Under the pieces are notes generated by a model. It had not been told where the DNA came from and made no database searches. It saw only the letters and a program-made list of their open reading frames with translations. Positions 37,513-51,113 of a DNA stretch of 51,113 nucleotides are shown here, piece by piece (positions within the stretch are counted from its first letter, which is position 1; each line of letters opens with the position of its first letter). This stretch comes from Candidatus Venteria ishoeyi. Lineage in GTDB: Bacteria > Pseudomonadota > Gammaproteobacteria > Beggiatoales > Beggiatoaceae. The position numbers and the translations under genes are program-made. The DNA lies in assembly GCF_030378065.1 (NCBI RefSeq), contig NZ_JAUCGJ010000018.1, forward strand, positions 1-51,113, read 5' to 3'.

Positions 37513-39111
<1,599 letters not shown>

Positions 39112-39419: not shown

Positions 39420-40838
39420 ATGCCAACCAACAAACTCAGTCATAATGACGCGCCTGTGGTGGAAGATGCTTTTCAACAAAAAGCCTTTATTCAGCGCATT
39501 TGCAAGGTCGTGAAAGAATGCAGGCCGCCCAAAGGCATTGCAATTAACGGTTATTGGGGAACGGGTAAGACCAGTGCCTTGATGCAGGTGTATTACCAGC
39601 TCAGCGGCAAACACCCCTATAATGGCGAACGCCCCAATAATGATGAAAAGAATGCAGGCCCATCAGAATTGAGTAAAAATATCGTCCCGGTATGGTTTGA
39701 AGCATGGCGTTATCAGCATGAAGCCTTGCCTATCGTGGCCTTATTAAATGAAATCCGCGAACAACTGGACTTGTGGGAAAAATTCAAAGGCGAAACCGAA
39801 AAACTCAGTGGCGTTGCTTGGCTGGGTACATTGAGTGTCTTTGATGAAGTGATTAAAGCCGCAAGCGGTGGTTTATTTTCACCTAAAATGGGCAATCTAC
39901 AAAAGGCGGGCAACAACTGGGAAGCCCAGCACTACAGTCAACCCTTACCCACCCAGAAAATTCACAACTTGTTTGAAGAAGCCGTGCGCCAAAGTTTAGG
40001 GGGTAAAAGCAAACGCCTGGTCATTTTTGTTGATGATTTAGATCGCTGCACGCCTGCCGCTGCCTTGCGATTGCTCGAAGGCATCAAGGTGTATCTCAAC
40101 CTGGAAAGCTGCGTGGTGATTTTTGGCATGGATCAGCGCCAGATTGAACGTGCGCTGAAAAAAGCCCTGGATCTCAATGATACGGCAGAATATTCTGATG
40201 ACAATCAGGCGCGGGAATACCTGGAAAAAATCTGTCAGGACATTTATCACCTGCCCCTACCCGATCAGGCCGCCAAAAGCAGCTATTTCATGAAACTGTT
40301 AAGCACGCTCCATGTGGGTAAAAACGAGAAACATTATCAACGCTGCCTGCAACAAGTGCTGAAACATTACGACTGTCTCCCCGCCAATCCGCGCAAAATA
40401 AAAGCTCTGGTGAACCGCACCAGCACCGTGCTGAGTGCATTGTATTTGGGGGATGGGCGCGATAATCTGGTTAAAATGGGTGCTGCAAACAAGGAAGAGG
40501 AAAAGCTTCTCATTAGTCGTAAATACGTGCTGTTGATGGCGTTGACGATTATTTATTGTTTTCATCGCCAACTCAATGAACAACTGGAAAAAGACCCCAG
40601 TTATATCGATAAAGTCATTACCTATGCCAAAGACCTGGACCCCACAGAACTGGTAGAAACCCATTCGATTTACCGTCCCTTTCAGACCATTTTACCTGCC
40701 ATGAACGGTGATACTAAACTTCCAGCCAATCCCAGTGACAGCAATGTGTTTCGCTTGCATGACGTGTTCAGAGACTTTGATGCCAGCTTGGGCAACTGCG
40801 ACCGGGAAATTGCCGCTTTTTATGCGATAAAATCATGA
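39420..40838 (+). CDS. KAP-family P-loop NTPase
   Basis: 472 residues. KAP NTPases are STAND-like P-loop proteins, several linked to membrane signalling or phage exclusion (for example PifA of plasmid F). Walker A GYWGTGKTS is at residues 44-52, the KAP-specific VWFEAWRYQH at 91-100, Walker B LVIFVDDLDRC at 200-210, and IFGMDQRQIERAL just after it, a sensor segment typical of the family. The usual transmembrane insertion is weak or absent. The C-terminal half is helical. It overlaps the NACHT-LRR gene by 4 bases (ATGA), so the two products are probably made together and act as one system. Confidence 0.88.
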   Translation: MPTNKLSHNDAPVVEDAFQQKAFIQRICKVVKECRPPKGIAINGYWGTGKTSALMQVYYQLSGKHPYNGERPNNDEKNAGPSELSKNIVPVWFEAWRYQHEALPIVALLNEIREQLDLWEKFKGETEKLSGVAWLGTLSVFDEVIKAASGGLFSPKMGNLQKAGNNWEAQHYSQPLPTQKIHNLFEEAVRQSLGGKSKRLVIFVDDLDRCTPAAALRLLEGIKVYLNLESCVVIFGMDQRQIERALKKALDLNDTAEYSDDNQAREYLEKICQDIYHLPLPDQAAKSSYFMKLLSTLHVGKNEKHYQRCLQQVLKHYDCLPANPRKIKALVNRTSTVLSALYLGDGRDNLVKMGAANKEEEKLLISRKYVLLMALTIIYCFHRQLNEQLEKDPSYIDKVITYAKDLDPTELVETHSIYRPFQTILPAMNGDTKLPANPSDSNVFRLHDVFRDFDASLGNCDREIAAFYAIKS

Positions 40839-43492
40839 AAACACCAGATACACTCTCTCAATTGCTACCCCAGGCACTACCCGCTGACAAAAAGGCTTTT
40901 GTTGATCTGCGCAACACTGGCAGTCTGGCGCATTATTTACGTCAGGTTTACCACCAATTCATGTACGCCAACAACTTCGGCCTGGCGATTGATGATGAAG
41001 ACAACGGCAGCGAAGGCAAGGCGGTCTTTTTACAAAATCTTTTTGTCACCCCGCAACTGGGCAAAGACCATCTTCTGCCGGAACAACTGATTCGCGCAGA
41101 AATTGACAACAAACTGCCGTCCCGCCAGACCATTATTGAGAGTTTGCAACAACATACCCGCTTATTTATTCTCGGCGACCCCGGCTGCGGCAAGTCCACC
41201 CTGATAAACTGGTTAATGCTGGCATTCAGCAACAGCGGCGAGAATGTCACCAAACTGGCACTGGGGAACTGCGTGCCTTTTGCCCTGATTCTGCGTGAAC
41301 TCAATTTGAGTAAAGCCCGGAACTGGGATGATGTGTGGCAGATATATCTTAAAAGCAATGCCAAATTGACGCTGGCCCTGCCCAAAGACCCTGAGGCGTT
41401 GGAACAGGTGTTTAACAGCGGTCAGGCTTTATTTTTACTCGATGGGCTGGACGAAATCACCCACCCGGATTTGCGCCGCCGTTTGGGGCTGGCGGTATTG
41501 GAAGCCATGCAGCGTTATCCACGCTGCCGGTTTGTGATCAGCTCGCGGCTGGTGGGGTTTAACCAGCAACACTGGTTTGGGTTGGAATCTACTGCCAGCG
41601 AAGCAGACGAACATCTGCGCATGGCAAAATCTGTGGATACGGAACTGCTGCCCACGCTGTATTTATCCCCCTTTGACCAACAACAGGCGGAACGCTTCAG
41701 CCACAACTGGTACAAACAATACGTGCCGGACAGCAGCCAACATGCGGGACAGGTGCGCGGTCTGGTGGAGCGCATCGGGCATAATGACGGGCTGGGACGC
41801 TTGGCGCGGATTCCGGTGCTGCTGAACATGATTTGTTTTATCCATGCGCGGCGTGGACGGCTGCCCGATGGACGCGCCGAACTCTATCAAAGCATTGCCA
41901 AAACTTATTTAACCGGATTGGATCGGGCGCGGAATCTCCAGTTTCTCGGACGTGCGTTTAATTTTGATTATTTTGACCTCAGCGAATGGCTGGGTACCTT
42001 GGCCCTGCGTATGCAGAACCAACGCAGCGAAGACGATACCGCGATTCTCATCAGCGAAGGCGAAGTGCGCACGTTTATCGTGGAAAAATTGGAGGAAAAA
42101 GGTTTTGGTGCGGCGGAGGCAAAAGCGGACAGTATTTTTATTCTGAAGTACTTATCCCAACGCAGCGGCATGTTTATCCCACGGGGTCAAAACGAAGCAG
42201 GACAGGAACAATACGCCTTCTCCCATCTCAGTTTTATGGAATACTTCGCCGCCGCTGAGCTTAAAGTCCGCTTACAATTTGGTGATGCCGAGGAATTTGC
42301 TGAGTTAGCTAAAAAAATCCAGCAGCCGTGGTGGAAAGAATGTTGCGTGTTGTTGTTTGAGCAACTGGAAAACACCCGCCTGGCGGAACAAATGTTCCGG
42401 CGTTTGTTTGTGGATACGCCCTTGTCCCAGGATAAAGAGGCCGCGCCTGCCTGGGCGGTGCTGGCGGAAGTGATTATGGACAGCGGGGTGCGTTTGTCTT
42501 CTAAACTGCGCCAGGAGTGGATTAAAAAAAGTTGGGGGTTTTATTTGCGACACCCTTATTTTGATAACCCAGATTATCCAACCGAGAGTTTTTACAGTCT
42601 GAATGCCGCTTTGTGGGCGGAACAGTTTGAGGCTTTGGAGCATTTTAGTCAGGTTGCTGAAGCGATGGATTTGACTCAACTAAGCCTGAGGGGTTGTAAA
42701 AACCTGAACAGCCTTGAGCGGATTGTCAAACTAAAGGGCTTGCAGTTGCTTGTTTTGAGTGATACCGGCGTGACGAATTTGAGTCCACTGGCGACTTGCA
42801 CTGCTTTGGAAATGCTTGGTTTAAGCAATACCGAAGTGACGGATGTGAGTCCACTGGCGGCTTGCAGTGCTTTGAAAAGACTTGATTTAAGTAATACCGG
42901 TGTGACGGATGTGAATCCGTTGGCGGCTTGCAGTACTTTGGAATGGCTTGATTTAACTAATACCGGTGTGACGGATGTGAATCCGTTGGCGGCTTACAGT
43001 ACTTTGGAATGGCTTGATTTAAGTAATACTAGGGTGAGAAATGTGAGTCCACTGGCGGCTTACAGTGCTTTGGAGCAGCTTTTATTAAGCAATACCGGCG
43101 TGACGGATGTGAGTCCGCTGGCTGCTTGCAGTGCTTTGAAAGTTCTTAGTTTAAACAATACCGGAGTGACGGATGTGAGTCCGCTGGCAGCTTGCAGTGC
43201 TTTGGAAATACTTTTATTAGGCAATACCAGCGTGACAGATGTGAGTCCACTGGCAGCTTGCAGTGCTTTGGAAATGCTTTTCTTAAACGATACTGGTGTG
43301 ACGGATGTGAGTCCACTGGCGACTTGCAGTGCTTTGGAAATACTTGATTTAAGTAATACTGGAGTGACGGATGTGAGTCCACTGGCGACTTGCACTGCTT
43401 TGGAAATGCTTGGTTTAAGCAATACCGGAGTAACGGATGTGAGCATGTTACAGCGTGAAGGTTTAACTATTGATGGTATGAAGGAGGAATAA
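40835..43492 (+). CDS. NACHT NTPase with C-terminal leucine-rich repeats (bacterial NLR-like)
   Basis: 885 residues. After a short N-terminal region (about 1-105) with no recognised effector domain comes a NACHT module: Walker A GDPGCGKST at 114-122, Walker B with the NACHT acidic run LFLLDGLDEI at 199-208, sensor-like RFVISSRLVGF, and ARIPVLLNMICFIHARRGRLP. A helical middle follows (FSHLSFMEYFAAAEL). Residues about 620-870 are eleven LRR units of 22 residues, consensus SPLAACSALEILDLSNTGVTDV. Such proteins act as pattern-recognition ATPases that oligomerise on a ligand; bacterial NACHT proteins include anti-phage defence genes. An effector is not visible here, so KAP or the divergent membrane protein may provide it. 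Confidence 0.9.
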   Translation: MKTPDTLSQLLPQALPADKKAFVDLRNTGSLAHYLRQVYHQFMYANNFGLAIDDEDNGSEGKAVFLQNLFVTPQLGKDHLLPEQLIRAEIDNKLPSRQTIIESLQQHTRLFILGDPGCGKSTLINWLMLAFSNSGENVTKLALGNCVPFALILRELNLSKARNWDDVWQIYLKSNAKLTLALPKDPEALEQVFNSGQALFLLDGLDEITHPDLRRRLGLAVLEAMQRYPRCRFVISSRLVGFNQQHWFGLESTASEADEHLRMAKSVDTELLPTLYLSPFDQQQAERFSHNWYKQYVPDSSQHAGQVRGLVERIGHNDGLGRLARIPVLLNMICFIHARRGRLPDGRAELYQSIAKTYLTGLDRARNLQFLGRAFNFDYFDLSEWLGTLALRMQNQRSEDDTAILISEGEVRTFIVEKLEEKGFGAAEAKADSIFILKYLSQRSGMFIPRGQNEAGQEQYAFSHLSFMEYFAAAELKVRLQFGDAEEFAELAKKIQQPWWKECCVLLFEQLENTRLAEQMFRRLFVDTPLSQDKEAAPAWAVLAEVIMDSGVRLSSKLRQEWIKKSWGFYLRHPYFDNPDYPTESFYSLNAALWAEQFEALEHFSQVAEAMDLTQLSLRGCKNLNSLERIVKLKGLQLLVLSDTGVTNLSPLATCTALEMLGLSNTEVTDVSPLAACSALKRLDLSNTGVTDVNPLAACSTLEWLDLTNTGVTDVNPLAAYSTLEWLDLSNTRVRNVSPLAAYSALEQLLLSNTGVTDVSPLAACSALKVLSLNNTGVTDVSPLAACSALEILLLGNTSVTDVSPLAACSALEMLFLNDTGVTDVSPLATCSALEILDLSNTGVTDVSPLATCTALEMLGLSNTGVTDVSMLQREGLTIDGMKEE
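42733..43446 (+). repeat. Tandem 66-bp LRR repeat array
   Basis: Ten to eleven units of 66 bases, nearly identical in the framework (AGTCCACTGGCGGCTTGCAG; AATACCGGTGTGACGGATGT) but different around codons for EMLGL, KRLDL, EWLDL, EQLLL, KVLSL, EILLL and EMLFL. The pattern suggests recent unequal crossing over combined with diversification of the beta-strand face. Confidence 0.9.
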
Positions 43493-45171: not shown

Positions 45172-45888
45172 CTATAGATTTGCTTCACAGCTTTGAATAT
45201 TGACATTATGCGCCTGTTCCGGCTTAGGTTCAGGCACGCTGCGCGGCATGTCTAACAAAGCTTCCAACACATCGCGCAGTTGTTCGAGGTAAGAGGCTGT
45301 CAGCAAGGCCAGCCCGGCGTAATAGGCGGTTGCCGCACGTTGACTGACGCGACTGGCAAAATCTTTAATCCAAAGCAGCAGATGTTCATCCAGAAATTGT
45401 GCAATCTGGCGCAGATTTTCTGTTGCATCATCCTGGCTCAATAAATAACTGATAAATTGTAGCTGACAGACCAGATGATCATCGGGTCTTAGACGCCAAT
45501 TTTCGACCTGCAAACCATATTGTTTATACCAGTCTCTGACCTGGAACATCGGTTGCTGACGCATCAGCCCTTCTTCATCCAGCCACACCGACTCACAGGG
45601 CGATGCCTGAATCGCGTGGTTAAGATAAATAGCGGCAAAATCTGCGGCTAACTCATCAAGTTGATTTTGTGTTACGGGCTGTTTCAACTCAGCCAGCGCC
45701 TCCGCCATAAAATCCAGACATTGATGCTGGGTTTTATCTACAAATTGCAAACCTAAGTGATGTGGAAAAGAAAATTGCTGCAATGATTTAAGTAAATCTG
45801 CTTTAGGCTCACTATCATGCAGTAAGACCAGCAAATTCACATCCGCCAGAATACTGTCCCGCCATTGTTTTGTTTGCATATTAGTCAT
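45172..45888 (-). CDS. TorD/DmsD-family chaperone
   Basis: 238 residues. TorD-family proteins bind the TAT signal of molybdoenzymes and help cofactor insertion in the cytoplasm. The ATG at 45888 has AAGGA 7 bases upstream and overlaps the ferredoxin stop; a longer frame from 45921 lies inside that gene. Family features: all-helical, the region QLDELAADFAAIYLNHAIQASPCESVWLDEEGLMRQQPMFQVRDWY with the PxxSVWLDExGL signature, then RPDDHLVCQLQFISYLL. It is the last gene of the molybdoenzyme operon. A substrate-specific chaperone for the enzyme at 46600-49149 is the obvious role. Confidence 0.85.
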   Translation of the reverse strand: MTNMQTKQWRDSILADVNLLVLLHDSEPKADLLKSLQQFSFPHHLGLQFVDKTQHQCLDFMAEALAELKQPVTQNQLDELAADFAAIYLNHAIQASPCESVWLDEEGLMRQQPMFQVRDWYKQYGLQVENWRLRPDDHLVCQLQFISYLLSQDDATENLRQIAQFLDEHLLLWIKDFASRVSQRAATAYYAGLALLTASYLEQLRDVLEALLDMPRSVPEPKPEQAHNVNIQSCEANL

Positions 45889-46585
45889 CCACACGTCCTT
45901 TGGCATGAGGCACAAAGACAATTGAAGGATTGGTCAATTCCGGGCTGGCCATATTTTTGACCTGACGTACCGGTTTGTCCCCCGGCCCTAAGGCTTTGGT
46001 GGGAAAATTGCCTTCCCGCAATTTATCTATCGGGCCAATATCCAGCACCCGCATCATGCAGGCCATCACGCAATAAGGATGACGTCCGGCTTCCAGTTCG
46101 TCAATACATAAGTTACATTTTTTCACCAGACCGTCTTCCGGGTCAAACTGCGGCGCGCCATAAGGACAAGCCGCTTCACAGCGGCGACAGCCAATGCACA
46201 GCGTGGAATCAATATCCACCACACCATTATCCTGACGTTTAAAAATAGCCCCGGTCGGACAAGTTGGCAGACAGGCCGGTTCCGCGCAGTGATTGCAGGA
46301 CATATTAACCTTGTATGCAAACACATCAGGGAAGCTGCCACCTTCCACATACATGACGCGGCGAAAACGTGGCCCTGCGTTCAACCCGTTTTTGTCTTTA
46401 CAGGCAATTTCACAGGCTCTACAGCCAATACAGTCTACATTATTATGAATAAACCCCACCTGCATTTCAGCTTGCACCGGCGTATAGTTGACCCGCTCGC
46501 GTTTGGTGGTTTTAATCGCTTGTTTAACCCGCTCCGCATCTTCTGCCGTTTGTACGTTGGGGTTATTTTTGGGAATTGTTGCCAT
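45881..46585 (-). CDS. Four-cluster ferredoxin subunit of the molybdoenzyme (DmsB-like)
   Basis: 234 residues. Sixteen cysteines form four [4Fe-4S] motifs: CIGCRACEIAC, CNHCAEPACLPTC, CIGCRRCEAAC, and CNLCIDELEAGRHPYCVMAC. This is the DmsB/NrfC/PhsB type electron-transfer subunit that passes electrons between the catalytic subunit and a quinone-linked or haem partner. The ATG at 46585 has AGGAG 8 bases upstream; the GTG just before it is less likely. There is no TAT signal, so it would be exported bound to the catalytic subunit. It overlaps torD and follows the catalytic gene by 14 bases. Confidence 0.92.
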   Translation of the reverse strand: MATIPKNNPNVQTAEDAERVKQAIKTTKRERVNYTPVQAEMQVGFIHNNVDCIGCRACEIACKDKNGLNAGPRFRRVMYVEGGSFPDVFAYKVNMSCNHCAEPACLPTCPTGAIFKRQDNGVVDIDSTLCIGCRRCEAACPYGAPQFDPEDGLVKKCNLCIDELEAGRHPYCVMACMMRVLDIGPIDKLREGNFPTKALGPGDKPVRQVKNMASPELTNPSIVFVPHAKGRVDD

Positions 46586-46599
46586 CACTTAATCTCCTG

Positions 46600-49149
46600 T
46601 TAATAATCCCTTCTGAACACATGGCTGCGCGCAGTTTTTTGTTTGTCCCAACCGGGTCGGTGGGTGCGACCATTGGTGGCTTTGCGCAGGTTGACCAGAA
46701 TCGTGTTATAAGCAAAGCCTCCTGCCGGACTGGGTTCATCCAGCGTCAGAAAATCGGGATTGCCAGCGCGATCCCAACCGTCCTCGTCCAGGTCCATCCA
46801 GGCCCCTTCATAGACAATAACAACACCGGGCATACAACGTTCGGTGGTAAAAGCCGGTAAGACAATGCCGCCGCGATCATTCCACACTTCCAGAGTATCG
46901 CCGGTTTTAATGCCCAGGCGTTTGGCATCGGAGGCGTTGAGGGTAATTTCCTGAGTATAAGTTTCCCGCAACCAGGGAATGTTGTGGAAAATGGAATGGG
47001 TACGCCAGCGCGGATGCGGCGTAATCATGTGGAAAGGGAATTTCTGGGTTTTGGGACTATTTAAGGATTCCCACGGCTCAATCCATTTGGGAATTGCCGG
47101 GATATAATAGCCATATTGAGTCTTAGTCCAGTCTTTAGTTTGCGCCAGGGTACTGGAGAAAATTTCAATTTTGCCAGAGGGTGTGCTCCAGGCCACGCCT
47201 TTTTCGATATTATCCTGGAAAGCGACATGCGGACGCGGCAGCTTGAATTTATACACACCACGTTTTTTGAACTCTTCCCAGGGCATGGTGACATGCTGGT
47301 GATGCATGACCTTATTCACCCACCATTCGCGTAAATAGCTTTCATCCACAGCATCGTTATGATGGAAATAATTGCGGTTGGCTTTGGGATTAAAACGCTC
47401 GCCAAAACCCAGACGATAAGCCAGTTCGGTAAAGACCTGAAGGTCGGTTTTAGATTCCCCCAAAGGTTCAATAACCTTGGGCCGGTGAATGTAATAATGC
47501 CCTTTATACCAGGGCAGCGCGACATCATGACGCTCGAAATGGGTGGCAATCGGCAGCAGCACGTCCGCCCATAATCCTGATGGGGTGATGGTGGAATCCA
47601 TGCACACCACCATATCGAGTTTTTTGATGGCAGCAATTTCTTTATTGATATTGGTCAACTGGTTAAACCAGTCAGAACCCTGCCAGAAAATGCCACGAAT
47701 ATTTGGTGGTACGCCATCACGTTCATCATTGCGCGGCCATAAGCCGATCTCTTCACGTTTTACATTGGGATAATTTAAGACACAGTGCGCCCAGCGGTCA
47801 GACTTGATAGAGGCGTACCAGACATTGGCAAATTCATCATAAGGATAGGCAATGCCTTCCGCGTGCCAAGCCTTACCCACGCCTTCCGCGCAACCGCCAA
47901 GTTTGCCGATATTACCGGTCATGGCCTGCAATGCCGCCGCCATGCGGTTATATTGCTCGCCATAAGCATTACGTCCCGGTGCCCAGGAGGCTTTTAATGC
48001 CGCTGGTTTGGTGGTCGCGTACATATGCGCGAGCTTGATAATATCTTTGGCAGGCACGCCGCAAATATCTGCGGCCCATTCCGGGGTTTTTGCTACGCCA
48101 TCAGAGCGCCCGGAAATATAATCTTTGAAACTTTCCTGACCATGCGCCCAATGCGGCATGGTGCCGGGGTCCATGCCCTGTACAAAACGGTTAATAAATT
48201 GCTGGTCTTGCAGATTGTTGGCAAAAATATAATACGCCATTCCCGCCATCATTGCGGCATCGGTATTGGGCCGAATGGGAATCCACCAGGCATCATAACT
48301 TGAAGCAGAATCGGTGTGCTGTGGATCAATCACCACAAATTTACAGCCCTTTTGCTTAGCCATGCGCATGTAATAGAAGGTATTACCGCCGTGGAAAGTA
48401 TAAGCCGGGTTCCAGCCCCACATAATAATCAGTTTGGAATGGGCAAAGGTATCATCTTCATTACCATCTTCAATGGTGCCGAAGGTGGTGCGGGAACTGA
48501 ATGTGGTTGCCTGATACGAGGGGACTGACCAGGAATTGGTGCGGCAGCCATACATGCCCAGGAAACGCCCCAGCAAGCCTTCAATCTGGTCAGACTTGTG
48601 CAACACGCCATAAGAAGCGCCAGCATAACTTTGATCCAATAAGGCCGTCGGGCCGTATTTTGCTTTTAATTCTTCCATACGCTGCGCAACCATGCCCAAC
48701 GCCTCATCCCAGGAAGCGCGCTTGAACTTGCCTTCACCACGCGCGCCCACCCGTATCATGGGATATAACAGGCGCTCGGCGGAATACAGTCGGGAACGAT
48801 AAGAACGCCCGCGCAAACAGGCGCGCAGTTGCGGCTCTTCAAAGGTGTCCTTGCCAAAAGCGCCACCTTGTTGATAACGCCCGTCATCAGAAGACAGGCG
48901 TACAATCACATCCCCTTTTTTATGCGCAACCAGCATATGACGCGAGCCACAGTTATGCGCGCAACTGGTCACCACCGTTTCCAACTCATCATCACGGGGA
49001 TAGGGTTCGTATGCAAAGGCTTTGGCGGGTTCCGGTTTCAAGCCTAAACTCACCGCCGCGCCAGCGGCTGCTGAGGTTTTTAAAAAGTCACGTCGATTAA
49101 TATTTAAGCTGTCTTGCAGCAATGCTAATTTTTCATTGGAAAAACTCAT
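46600..49149 (-). CDS. DMSO-reductase-family molybdopterin oxidoreductase, catalytic subunit
   Basis: 849 residues. TAT signal NINRRDFLKTSAAAGAAVS near residues 17-35, so it acts in the periplasm. The FS0 iron-sulfur motif is SCAHNCGSRHMLVAH: Cys63, Cys67, then His71 where DmsA has its third Cys, and the fourth Cys at 111 in LRACLRGRS. Molybdopterin binding follows as MWGWNPAYTFHGGNTF, VVIDPQHTDSAS, FWQGSDWFNQL and the C-terminal HMITPHPRWRTHSIFHN. The family includes DMSO, selenate, tetrathionate and related reductases and dehydrogenases; the substrate cannot be assigned. A pentaheme cytochrome lies upstream, a ferredoxin and TorD chaperone downstream. Confidence 0.9.
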   Translation of the reverse strand: MSFSNEKLALLQDSLNINRRDFLKTSAAAGAAVSLGLKPEPAKAFAYEPYPRDDELETVVTSCAHNCGSRHMLVAHKKGDVIVRLSSDDGRYQQGGAFGKDTFEEPQLRACLRGRSYRSRLYSAERLLYPMIRVGARGEGKFKRASWDEALGMVAQRMEELKAKYGPTALLDQSYAGASYGVLHKSDQIEGLLGRFLGMYGCRTNSWSVPSYQATTFSSRTTFGTIEDGNEDDTFAHSKLIIMWGWNPAYTFHGGNTFYYMRMAKQKGCKFVVIDPQHTDSASSYDAWWIPIRPNTDAAMMAGMAYYIFANNLQDQQFINRFVQGMDPGTMPHWAHGQESFKDYISGRSDGVAKTPEWAADICGVPAKDIIKLAHMYATTKPAALKASWAPGRNAYGEQYNRMAAALQAMTGNIGKLGGCAEGVGKAWHAEGIAYPYDEFANVWYASIKSDRWAHCVLNYPNVKREEIGLWPRNDERDGVPPNIRGIFWQGSDWFNQLTNINKEIAAIKKLDMVVCMDSTITPSGLWADVLLPIATHFERHDVALPWYKGHYYIHRPKVIEPLGESKTDLQVFTELAYRLGFGERFNPKANRNYFHHNDAVDESYLREWWVNKVMHHQHVTMPWEEFKKRGVYKFKLPRPHVAFQDNIEKGVAWSTPSGKIEIFSSTLAQTKDWTKTQYGYYIPAIPKWIEPWESLNSPKTQKFPFHMITPHPRWRTHSIFHNIPWLRETYTQEITLNASDAKRLGIKTGDTLEVWNDRGGIVLPAFTTERCMPGVVIVYEGAWMDLDEDGWDRAGNPDFLTLDEPSPAGGFAYNTILVNLRKATNGRTHRPGWDKQKTARSHVFRRDY

Positions 49150-49187: not shown

Positions 49188-49964
49188 TTATTTTGCCGCA
49201 GTCTGCTTAGGCAGGCGAAAACGCGGTTCAGACTCAGTTGGACGATTTTTTGCCCACTCCGGCACTTCAGCACCGACACCGGGCCAAGCATGGCGCGGAT
49301 AAGGGTAGGCAACCCGATACCAGGCACGTCCACCATGACAACCATAACAGGCATCTGGACTTTCTTTTGCCGCAGCTTCAATGGCCTCTGCATTTAAGTA
49401 ATTGACCTGATGGCGCACAGAGCGAATCACTGTGTGACAAGTCATACAGGTTGTAAACAGTTTATGAGATTCTGGCCAGGGAGAAGGCAATCCCATGACC
49501 TGGTAATTCATCTGTCCGTGACATTTTAAGCAGGTGGTCTCTGGATTGACTGTTTTTCGTAAACTAAAACCCGCATTAGAATTTGTTGGGGGAACCGGGG
49601 CTGCTTCACGGGGATCATGACCCTGATGACAGGTATTGCACTTCAGGTTCATCAATTTTTTAGCTAAGGGCGTAACTAGATGACGGCGGTGAAAGGTTTC
49701 CTGCTCACCTTGATAAACTTCCAGGGTTTGATACCAGGCCAGGCTATCTTTTGCTTTAACGCCTGCGGGGGATTCAGGTTTGACTTTGGATTCAATAATT
49801 TCCTGGTGGCAAGCCAGACATTGTTCATCTTTGGCAGTATCAATAGCGGGTTTGAAATGGATGGGATGCCAACGCGCACTTTCATAATCCATATCCTGTG
49901 CATAAACATTCCAGCCTAAACTTTGGCAAACCAGCACTGCCCAGACAGTAAAAGATTTTTGCAT
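49188..49964 (-). CDS. Pentaheme cytochrome c, periplasmic
   Basis: 258 residues. Signal peptide about 1-22 (ending WNVYAQ). Five CxxCH haem sites: CLACH at 49, CNTCH at 109, CLKCH at 145, CMTCH at 173 and CYGCH at 206. The spacing is irregular, unlike NapB, NrfB or cytochrome c3, so the class is not named. It is encoded directly upstream of the molybdoenzyme with AAGGAGAA before its start, and most likely is the periplasmic electron partner linking that enzyme to the respiratory chain. No membrane-anchor subunit (DmsC/NrfD-like) occurs in the operon as far as the window shows. Confidence 0.88.
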   Translation of the reverse strand: MQKSFTVWAVLVCQSLGWNVYAQDMDYESARWHPIHFKPAIDTAKDEQCLACHQEIIESKVKPESPAGVKAKDSLAWYQTLEVYQGEQETFHRRHLVTPLAKKLMNLKCNTCHQGHDPREAAPVPPTNSNAGFSLRKTVNPETTCLKCHGQMNYQVMGLPSPWPESHKLFTTCMTCHTVIRSVRHQVNYLNAEAIEAAAKESPDACYGCHGGRAWYRVAYPYPRHAWPGVGAEVPEWAKNRPTESEPRFRLPKQTAAK

Positions 49965-50130: not shown

Positions 50131-51113
50131 TTATTTCATGCCGGACATACCGCTCATGCCGCCCATACCGGACATTCCACTCATGCCGCCCATGCCGGAC
50201 ATTCCGCTCATGCCACCCATGCCGGACATTCCGCCCATACCGGACATTCCACTCATGCCGCCCATGCCGGACATTCCGCTCATGCCGCCCATGCCAGACA
50301 TTCCGCCCATGCCGGACATACCGCTCATGCCGCCCATGCCGCCCATGCCGGACATTCCACTCATGCCGCCCATGCCGGACATTCCGCCCATGCCGGACAT
50401 GCCACTCATGCCTGTAGGAGGTCTCCAGTAGTAACCGCCCATGCCACCCATGCCGCCCATGCCGGACATGCCATGCATACCGGACATGCCGCCCATGCCA
50501 CCCATACCGGACATACCGCCCATGCCACCCATACCGGACATGCCACCCATGCCGCCCATACCGGACATGCCACCCATACCACCCATACCGCTCATGCCAG
50601 ACATATTACCGCTATAGACATAAGTTGTTGCCGGATAGAAATACATGTGACCATCAGGCGTAATATGGAAATAAGCGCGAGAGCTTGCAACACCACCACC
50701 GCCATAACCAGACATACCACTCATGCCGCCCATGCCAGACATACCGCCCATGCCGGACATACCGTGCATACCAGACATACCGCCCATGCCGGACATACCG
50801 CCCATGCCGGACATACCGCCCATGCCGGACATACCGCCCATGCCGGACATACCGCCCATGCCGTGCATACCGGACATGCCGTGCATACCAGACATACCGC
50901 CCATGCCACCCATGCCGGACATACCGCCCATACCACCCATGCCGGACATGCCACCCATGCCGCACATACCACTCATGCCGCCCATGCCGGACATACCACC
51001 CATGCCACCCATGCCGGACATACCACCCATGCCGCCCATACCGGACATGCCACCCATACCACCCATACCGCTCATGCCAGACATATTACCGCGATAGACA
51101 TAAGTTGTTGCCG
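50131..51113 (-). CDS. Met/Gly-repeat protein, 5' end outside the window
   Basis: The frame is open from the right edge of the window to TAA at 50131, so it is partial; codons before the ATG at 51084 read TTYVYRGN, matching an internal spacer. At least 325 residues of MSGMGGMGG-type repeats, roughly one Met every three residues. They are broken by one GYYWRPPTG and one spacer with SSRAYFHITPDGHMYFYP followed by ATTYVYSGN. The spacer recurs at the edge, so the protein is built of large blocks of at least 470 bases. Whether a signal peptide exists cannot be seen. Met-rich chains can bind Cu(I) or Ag(I) or scavenge oxidants; that is speculation. Confidence 0.7.
   Translation of the reverse strand, partial: ATTYVYRGNMSGMSGMGGMGGMSGMGGMGGMSGMGGMGGMSGMGGMSGMCGMGGMSGMGGMGGMSGMGGMGGMSGMHGMSGMHGMGGMSGMGGMSGMGGMSGMGGMSGMGGMSGMHGMSGMGGMSGMGGMSGMSGYGGGGVASSRAYFHITPDGHMYFYPATTYVYSGNMSGMSGMGGMGGMSGMGGMGGMSGMGGMGGMSGMGGMGGMSGMHGMSGMGGMGGMGGYYWRPPTGMSGMSGMGGMSGMGGMSGMSGMGGMGGMSGMSGMGGMSGMGGMSGMSGMGGMSGMSGMGGMSGMGGMSGMSGMGGMSGMSGMGGMSGMSGMK
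50137..51084. repeat. 9-bp based minisatellite (CATGCCGCC/CATACCGGA units)
   Basis: The coding region for the Met/Gly protein consists of 9-base units, CATGCCGCC, CATGCCGGA, CATTCCGCT, CATACCGCC and CATACCACC on the plus strand, arranged in higher-order blocks. About 125 bases at 50597-50720 interrupt the units. Every unit is three codons, so length changes keep frame. Confidence 0.9.

Follow-up and report, generated by a model that had tools for sequence, protein, structure and literature searches.

The stretch of DNA analysed here (the window: 51,113 nt, the first 51,113 bases of a 78,943-nt contig of Candidatus Venteria ishoeyi) encodes part of a protein made of Met-x-Gly triplets (MxG), next to a pentahaem c-type cytochrome and a molybdoenzyme (MoA) with DMSO-reductase superfamily domains. 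The triplet repeat is confirmed and the protein is real; judged from its sequence, it looks exported. The locus was shown to recur across alpha-, beta- and gammaproteobacteria. We tentatively propose, with a confidence that stops just short of even, that it may be a periplasmic, rechargeable thioether oxidant sink, in which MoA would re-reduce oxidised MxG with cytochrome electrons.

The C-terminal 326 residues of MxG are encoded at 50131..51111 on the minus strand, and the gene runs past the window, across a 100-N scaffold gap (contig 51114-51213) whose start is the window edge, to an ATG at contig position 51736. Within the 326-residue frame, 93 Met, 140 Gly and 48 Ser together account for 86% of the residues, and the spacing from one Met to the next is exactly 3 in 89 of 92 cases, confirming the original prediction of Met at about every third position over more than 325 residues. 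The three exceptional spacings (23, 14 and 11) fall at non-repeat islands. The longest runs with this period of three comprise 42, 30 and 19 units, compared to at most 4 in the rest of the window's six frames. TRF reported periods of 18, 27 and 45 bp for the array. One island between repeat tracts, YGGGGVASSRAYFHITPDGHMYFYPATTYVYSGN (50605..50706, minus strand), has an equivalent in Thiorhodococcus that was modelled as two short strands (a hairpin). A second, aromatic and Pro-containing island, YYWRPPTG, lies at 50410..50433 on the minus strand. The island HITPDGHMYFYP is present in one whole copy in the window. Another copy is broken by the gap, and only its end, ATTYVYRGN (51085..51111, minus strand), falls inside the window.

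Upstream of the gap, MxG continues for 174 residues, including 44 Met, and starts with MYFNKIALTVAVATLLASPLSIAAEDAKQKGMSG. By eye this start, MYFNKIALTVAVATLLASPLSIAAEDAKQKG, which lies in the flanking sequence beyond the window, is signal-peptide-like, and the ribosome-binding site GGAGG precedes the ATG. The host protein has at least 500 residues and at least 137 Met, both lower bounds since the scaffold gap interrupts the array. Lack of a signal peptide and random frameshifts in homologues had been named as findings that would count against the prediction. The start found here is signal-peptide-like, and the frame is open in G002, the Ruthturnera chromosome CP125320 and the plasmid pEJ01, three records given as complete or single-contig.

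Codons and composition were surveyed in 25 MxG proteins, one from each of 25 loci, and Met accounts for 26-36% of their repeat regions. The x position is occupied mainly by Ser (911) and Gly (601), followed by Asn, Tyr, Arg, Gln, Asp and Ala, and metal-binding side chains are rare there (7 His, no Cys). Gly is encoded by 1116 GGC, 462 GGT, 195 GGA and 98 GGG codons, and Ser by 727 TCN and 184 AGY codons. As units were tallied as M-x-G, invariance within a unit is built in, and the informative features are the unbroken spacing and the synonymous spread. The DNA is variable while Met and Gly stay constant, which argues against mere expansion of a DNA repeat. Related islands also recur between the repeat tracts (YFxITPxGxIFFYP, GWVCTQWT, WVWVPSG and YYWxPPTG).

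AlphaFold2 modelling of an MxG monomer (A2, 5 rows) gave a mean pLDDT of 44 and a pTM of 0.19. For the island YFxITPxGxIFFYP the model shows two short strands (block pLDDT 85 and 73); almost the whole of the remaining mature chain stays below a pLDDT of 50, with the repeats as low-confidence coil. Such a coil might suit an accessible substrate, a low-confidence model being no proof of disorder. The Pfam search with the window protein gave no match at E≤0.001, and the Pfam Collagen model matched the N-terminal part of MxG at E=0.32. In NCBIfam the matches were mainly to collagen-like adhesin models far under their cut-offs: the window protein scored 25.5 of 500 and 20.9 of 325 bits, and the best homologue 101.4 bits against a cut-off of 325. 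The MXKDX-repeat model gave no NCBIfam match at E≤10 for eight MxG homologues. A text search of the open-access literature with the repeat letters found no paper, and one with Met/Gly-rich wording returned no description of MxG among the matches listed. The view that the protein belongs to no characterised family is therefore supported within Pfam, NCBIfam and the open-access literature searched, and among the matches listed in that literature neither protein nor module has been reported. A search for viral relatives yielded 272 stretches with a match to a peptide pattern, none of them confirmed.

MxG lies upstream of the multihaem cytochrome and the molybdoenzyme in the same direction, as had been predicted. 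The cytochrome (49188..49964, minus strand) has a signal-peptide-like start and five CxxCH motifs, at residues 49, 109, 145, 173 and 206. It is followed on the minus strand by MoA (46600..49149; Tat signal, PF00384, PF01568), a DmsB-like 4Fe-4S electron-transfer subunit (45881..46588) and a TorD/DmsD-like Tat proofreading chaperone (45172..45921). Across loci, the usual order is a divergent sensor kinase, a small exported protein, MxG, the pentahaem cytochrome, MoA, the Fe-S subunit and the TorD-like chaperone. This order varies: the small protein comes after MxG in L121 and after TorD in L175, some loci (L200, L036) have more than one MxG open reading frame (ORF), and in the host an extra ORF of 253 residues with no Pfam match is found between the small protein and MxG. 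The small exported protein has no Pfam match; 20 columns are invariant over 16 sequences, and AlphaFold2 modelled it (A1, 16 rows) with a mean pLDDT of 61 and a pTM of 0.35. Neither a copper/silver or other metal gene was recognised among the recurrent operon members, some of whose ORFs have no Pfam match, nor a DmsC-like anchor in the operon.

CxxCH is retained in 24 of 25 sensor-kinase rows, a set that includes two duplicate pairs. At 11 of 28 loci, the 300 nt before the small-protein gene contain a sigma-54-like site, compared to 0.1 expected from mononucleotide shuffles; the other 17 loci have none. Five of 49 M-x-G rows, which include a few spurious frames, have a sigma-54-like site of their own (0.19 expected). 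That of the host MxG, TGGCACAAGCCTTGC, is 127 nt before the ATG.

MoA carries the DMSO-reductase superfamily domains PF00384 and PF01568 over cut-off. Its best-scoring curated model, TIGR02166 (DMSO/selenate reductase A), gave 606.2 bits, below the cut-off of 777.7. The 41 MoA rows, which include two same-organism pairs, form their own clade apart from E. coli DmsA, YnfE and YnfF with support of 100/100. After two short rows were left out of the motif alignment, all 41 have the FS0 motif C-x3-C-x3-H...C, the third position of which is Cys in the three E. coli proteins. By sequence, then, MoA is not DmsA, either by cut-off or by cluster motif, and the 41 rows delimit a clade of molybdoenzymes whose FS0 cluster has an unusual His. 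Ser211 of MoA aligns with Ser147 of DMSO reductase (DorA), the Mo ligand, and this Ser is conserved in 41/41 rows. The DorA motif SYGW is SYAG or AYAG in MoA; in the same alignment, E. coli DmsA is also without SYGW. MoA scores higher against Ser-ligated S/N-oxide reductases than against thiosulfate/polysulfide reductase.

Elsewhere in the window, on the plus strand at 39420-43492, a gene for a P-loop NTPase similar to the PADLOC PDC-S20/QatA/PifA models adjoins one for an 885-residue NTPase-like protein that ends in about 10 leucine-rich 66-bp repeats (83% match). From their sequences, the two genes are a candidate NLR-like defence pair. Near them, on the minus strand, the gene at 37513-39111 encodes a probable membrane protein of 532 residues and contains 30 copies of a hexamer (38353-38535), which specify an (AVAVAF)-like stretch.

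We examined the association of MxG with the cytochrome in genomes picked solely by the cytochrome next to it (15 of 57 relatives, 15 of 369 genomes of the class and 5 of 398 of the phylum). The three sets overlap, and their union is 29 distinct genomes, host included. An MxG ORF was present upstream of the cytochrome on the same strand in 28 of the 29, at a distance of 99-1,024 nt. In the wider of these gaps no other gene was recognised, and in L184, L194 and L199 the space is largely an N-terminal extension of the cytochrome ORF. Where the contig breaks off within the array, as it does in several genomes, only a stub of the MxG ORF is seen; those of G026 and G005 have about 20 residues. The sole exception, G163, has MoA before the cytochrome on a 6.7-kb contig. 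An exported EF-hand-like small protein with an MSGMDG tail was seen in this cytochrome-positive genome without an adjacent MxG (L219). When 36 genomes of the host family were searched for both the cytochrome and seven M-x-G units, 12 had both, one had the cytochrome alone, two had the pattern alone and 21 had neither. The genome with the cytochrome and no sevenfold pattern (G020) nonetheless has an adjacent Met-rich array.

MoA was found (E≤1e-220) in 16 of the 369 class genomes: the 15 cytochrome-positive ones and G171, in which the contig ends inside MoA. Second copies of MoA occur in G002 and G026; each is preceded by a Met-rich ORF (15-18% Met), and the stretch examined around it shows no pentahaem gene. 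At these second loci (L206:3389-6959 and L208), the upstream Met-rich ORF shares YP-G-LYP islands, and L206 has two monohaem cytochrome genes in place of the pentahaem one. A second MoA in G021 (L225) has no M-x-G ORF in the 9 kb examined.

Scanning the collection for eight M-x-G codon triplets matched at least 118 stretches, so the named hosts are a sample. GroEL tails, SRP54 tails and unrelated low-complexity ORFs among the pattern matches were set aside by eye, and operon genes beside MxG, whole or partial, were located by tblastn with the host operon proteins. Hosts with MxG and operon genes included Thiothrix caldifontis (L066), Thiofilum flexile (L108), Thiodiazotropha (L034, L047), Ruthturnera (L086, L109), a Lamellibrachia symbiont (L046), Thiorhodococcus (L131), Thiobacillus (L126), Hyphomicrobium (L036, L117), Marimonas (L091), Rhodobacterales/Rhodobacteraceae MAGs (L029, L030, L049, L124) and a betaproteobacterial MAG (L121). 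In Azospirillum halopraeferens (L128) only the small protein was found, with MxG close to the edge of the stretch examined. Three M-x-G ORFs are present in Hyphomicrobium L036, and the start of one is lipobox-like. Among the matches listed, 33 named loci were judged to be exported MxG arrays, and 27 of these have at least one operon gene. Three of the 33 (L053, L100, L103) are cut off at the array, with no operon gene in the visible flank, and in Sedimenticola L102, Thiodiazotropha endolucinida L106 and Thiolinea L114 no operon gene was found with both flanks or the informative flank in view. The pattern-scan and cytochrome-picked sets overlap (by the MoA tree, L108 = G343 and L086 = G265), and their counts are not to be summed. 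In Rhodobacter xanthinilyticus the complete module, together with its histidine kinase and a sigma-54 regulator, is borne by the conjugative plasmid pEJ01, which was the sole match to a plasmid record. This indicates that the module can probably move as a unit.

The T. endolucinida gene has a different neighbour. Here (L106:268-2326), MxG lies tail to tail with a 384-residue MsrA-MsrB fusion about 290 nt away, which matches Pfam PMSR and SelR and, with a lipobox-like signal at its start (by eye), is exported-looking. MsrA/MsrB is the classical repair enzyme for methionine sulfoxide (MetO). A redoxin-family gene is found 1.3 kb behind the MxG start, and the MoA module is absent from the 8 kb examined. 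Of the 25 MsrA/MsrB loci examined from 14 MxG genomes, L106 alone has an M-x-G ORF nearby (within about 1.5 kb); the other 24, among them the two closest MsrAB orthologues, in Thiodiazotropha, have none. The neighbourhood fits the prediction of a MetO cycle, but it is a single case.

M-x-G sequences were also seen in other contexts (G006, G033, G277, and the EF-hand-like protein of G163). An ORF of Paracoccus sanguinis (L069:2579-4816) has a start like that of a quinoprotein alcohol dehydrogenase (by eye) and, in the same frame, an M-x-G run, with 24 MxxM in 746 residues. Exported-looking MKGMEG or MAGMEG repeat proteins (L149/L204 in G006, L202 in G023) lie outside the MoA context and are possibly charged cousins of Met-rich peptides.

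In the proposed oxidant sink, exposed Met of the flexible MxG chain would react with oxidants (peroxide, hypohalous acids, and the reactive sulfur and oxygen species formed where sulfide meets oxygen) to give MetO. MoA would reduce the sulfoxides of MxG with electrons passed from the cytochrome c pool to the pentahaem protein and Fe-S subunit and on to MoA, and the CxxCH-bearing sensor kinase and sigma-54 regulator would switch the operon on. Overall, this would be a peroxidase-like cycle with a protein as the substrate. An oxidation sink had already been suggested as one use of a dense Met surface, and that suggestion gains support from the co-location with a Ser-ligated enzyme of the DMSO-reductase family. 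The tie between an enzyme of the Ser-ligated S-oxide-reductase type and an exported protein of about 30% Met suggests that MxG is the substrate of MoA. Consistent with this, MxG adjoins the cytochrome in 28/29 genomes and MoA tracks the cytochrome (the same 15, plus one, among 369), the second MoA copies of G002 and G026 keep an upstream Met-rich ORF despite having no pentahaem gene in view, and the Mo-ligand-aligned Ser is found in 41/41 MoA rows, with DMSO/selenate reductase A as the best curated model. The Met/Gly constraint acts at the protein level over 25 proteins and the repeats were modelled as low-confidence coil; CxxCH in 24/25 kinase rows and sigma-54-like sites at 11/28 loci fit the proposed control, the exported-looking MsrA-MsrB fusion beside MxG in L106 fits the proposed chemistry, and there is precedent for a Met-rich peptide and a molybdenum MetO reductase acting against hypochlorite.

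Whether an enzyme like MoA could act on such a chain is addressed by work on related enzymes. According to one study, protein-bound MetO is a substrate of the periplasmic DMSO reductase DorA, also in disordered casein, where up to 2 of 6 MetO were reduced, and two periplasmic proteins were reduced only partly; free MetO was reduced by both DmsA and DorA, and BisC and TorZ/MtsZ were reported without activity on protein-bound MetO (PMC7402097). The inactivity of BisC and TorZ/MtsZ and the partial action of DorA, as given there, count against the sink, as does the fact that the substrate is unreadable from sequence, with SYGW of DorA replaced by SYAG/AYAG in MoA (E. coli DmsA lacks SYGW as well). 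MsrP is a further difficulty: it coexists with the module in 19 of 30 module-bearing genomes, and the host has an MsrP-like gene on another contig (contig 96). A role of MoA as a simple replacement of MsrP was rejected on this count. MsrP is known to reduce protein-bound MetO in the periplasm, so MoA would not be required if repair of MetO were the sole task. One MoA copy (G021, L225) is without MxG, and the MxG genes of L102, L106 and L114 are without operon genes in the visible flanks. The MsrAB neighbourhood of L106, a single case, and these three module-free genes pull in opposite directions, so they did not shift our estimate for the sink.

The enrichment of SoxY fits a role in sulfur metabolism equally well. 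Among the class genomes, 14 of the 15 with the cytochrome have SoxY, as do 176 of the 354 without it (Fisher p=5.8e-4, ignoring kinship), and the host sox genes (named by eye, SoxY confirmed by Pfam) are about 7-10 kb from MxG. We consider it unlikely, yet deserving of attention, that MxG is a sulfur-handling scaffold, a thioether-lined, Gly-rich chain that would coat or bind periplasmic S8 or polysulfide in the manner of sulfur-globule envelope proteins, with MoA oxidising or reducing a sulfur compound presented on it. Many of the named hosts in which operon genes were found are reputed sulfur oxidisers (Thiothrix, Thiofilum, Thiodiazotropha, Ruthturnera, the Lamellibrachia symbiont, Thiorhodococcus and Thiobacillus). 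However, SoxY is common (190/369) and related genomes are not independent, 21 of 36 host-family genomes have neither the cytochrome nor the sevenfold pattern, and operon genes occur in Hyphomicrobium, Rhodobacterales and Azospirillum, which are not typical globule formers. The scores that place MoA nearer to Ser-ligated S/N-oxide reductases than to thiosulfate/polysulfide reductase also speak against this scaffold.

Another reading, which we hold to be distinctly unlikely, makes MxG a rechargeable periplasmic redox capacitor: some 100-140 thioethers per chain would be oxidised to sulfoxides while oxygen is available, and once it is exhausted the cell would use them, through the cytochromes and MoA, as an electron acceptor of its own that does not diffuse away. 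If true, this would be a solid-state protein form of DMSO respiration, suited to bacteria shuttling between sulfide and oxygen.

Soft-metal binding and the formation of condensates or fibres had also been suggested for the dense Met surface. Two further explanations along such lines are, in our view, improbable. The MxxM spacing resembles Met-rich copper motifs, and the Met of MxG could bind Cu(I)/Ag(I) as a soft-metal chaperone or sponge, perhaps protecting or supplying a periplasmic enzyme. Beyond the gap the host MxG contains 4 Cys, and in the window its x positions include 4 His and 1 Cys; two other pattern matches are, by eye, efflux-adaptor-like Met-rich proteins (L120, L132); against this, the recurrent operon members include no recognised copper/silver gene, the x position in the 25 homologues is Ser or Gly (911 and 601) far more than His (7) and never Cys, and MxG is paired with a molybdoenzyme instead of a copper enzyme. 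To about the same small degree, we credit a structural matrix, in which the Gly-every-third chain would form a triple-helical, poly-Gly-II-like or cross-beta fibre that organises a cytochrome/enzyme complex at the cell surface. The strict Gly period of three, the weak likeness to collagen-like models, and the multiple MxG ORFs at L200 and L036 (one in L036 with a lipobox-like start) would suit such a fibre, but Pro is nearly absent from the triplets, the best collagen-model score was 101 against 325 bits, the low-confidence AlphaFold2 model, of a monomer, gives no sign of such an assembly, and the strict retention of Met is left unexplained. A functionless, selfish expansion of the 9-bp array, or an assembly artefact, is barely credible despite the low complexity and the many assemblies that break or carry N runs at the array, and chance or artefact was rejected, as the same array recurs at the same locus in three proteobacterial classes, also in complete records, in an open frame with a signal-like start in which Met and Gly are kept amid synonymous variation.

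If the oxidant sink, or the related capacitor, is true, many sulfur-oxidising bacteria, including symbionts of marine animals, carry an unrecognised oxidant-handling or electron-storage system, and an exceptionally methionine-dense natural protein would become a test case for reversible methionine oxidation. Even with another function, the pairing of a Met-x-Gly protein with the MoA clade demands explanation, and the question of the substrate is directly testable.

Several known proteins resemble parts of the locus. Sulfur-globule envelope proteins resemble MxG in being exported, Gly-rich repeat proteins of sulfur bacteria. The Gly-Gly-Met tails of GroEL and the Met-rich tails of SRP54 share M-x-G runs and made up many of the pattern matches (by eye); in contrast to MxG, they are cytosolic and sit on folded proteins of known function, mostly with 8-15 MxxM, the longest among the matches listed being a Prochlorococcus SRP54-like tail with 29 (L129). 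Compared to DmsABC/YnfEFGH of E. coli, MoA, the Fe-S subunit and the TorD-like protein are homologous to the A and B subunits and the chaperone, with the Mo-ligand Ser aligned, whereas MoA is a separate clade (100/100) with His for the third FS0 Cys and the module adds the pentahaem cytochrome and MxG. In two papers, dmsAB is reported in Beggiatoaceae and lucinid symbionts (PMC5728499, PMC11237559), and members of the MoA clade may already be present in published genomes, annotated as dmsAB or DMSO reductase.

The closest functional parallel is with MrpX and YedYZ and with BcrXQP, in which, as reported, a Met-rich peptide and a molybdenum MetO reductase counter hypochlorite; both systems and ours place a low-complexity, Met-rich exported protein beside a periplasmic molybdenum oxidoreductase, with a Met/MetO cycle proposed (PMC4623255, PMC8315932). 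The repeat unit differs, being MXKDX in MrpX/BcrX and M-x-G with x mostly Ser or Gly in MxG. The partner of MrpX is MsrPQ/YedYZ, whereas the neighbour of MxG is a PF00384/PF01568 enzyme of the DMSO-reductase superfamily, unlike MsrP, a sulfite-oxidase-type enzyme. The MxG module has a pentahaem cytochrome and an Fe-S protein where the MrpX system has MsrQ, and its control looks like that of a kinase with sigma-54 in place of an ECF sigma/anti-sigma pair. The MxG module may work like MrpX/MsrPQ without belonging to that family, from unrelated parts.
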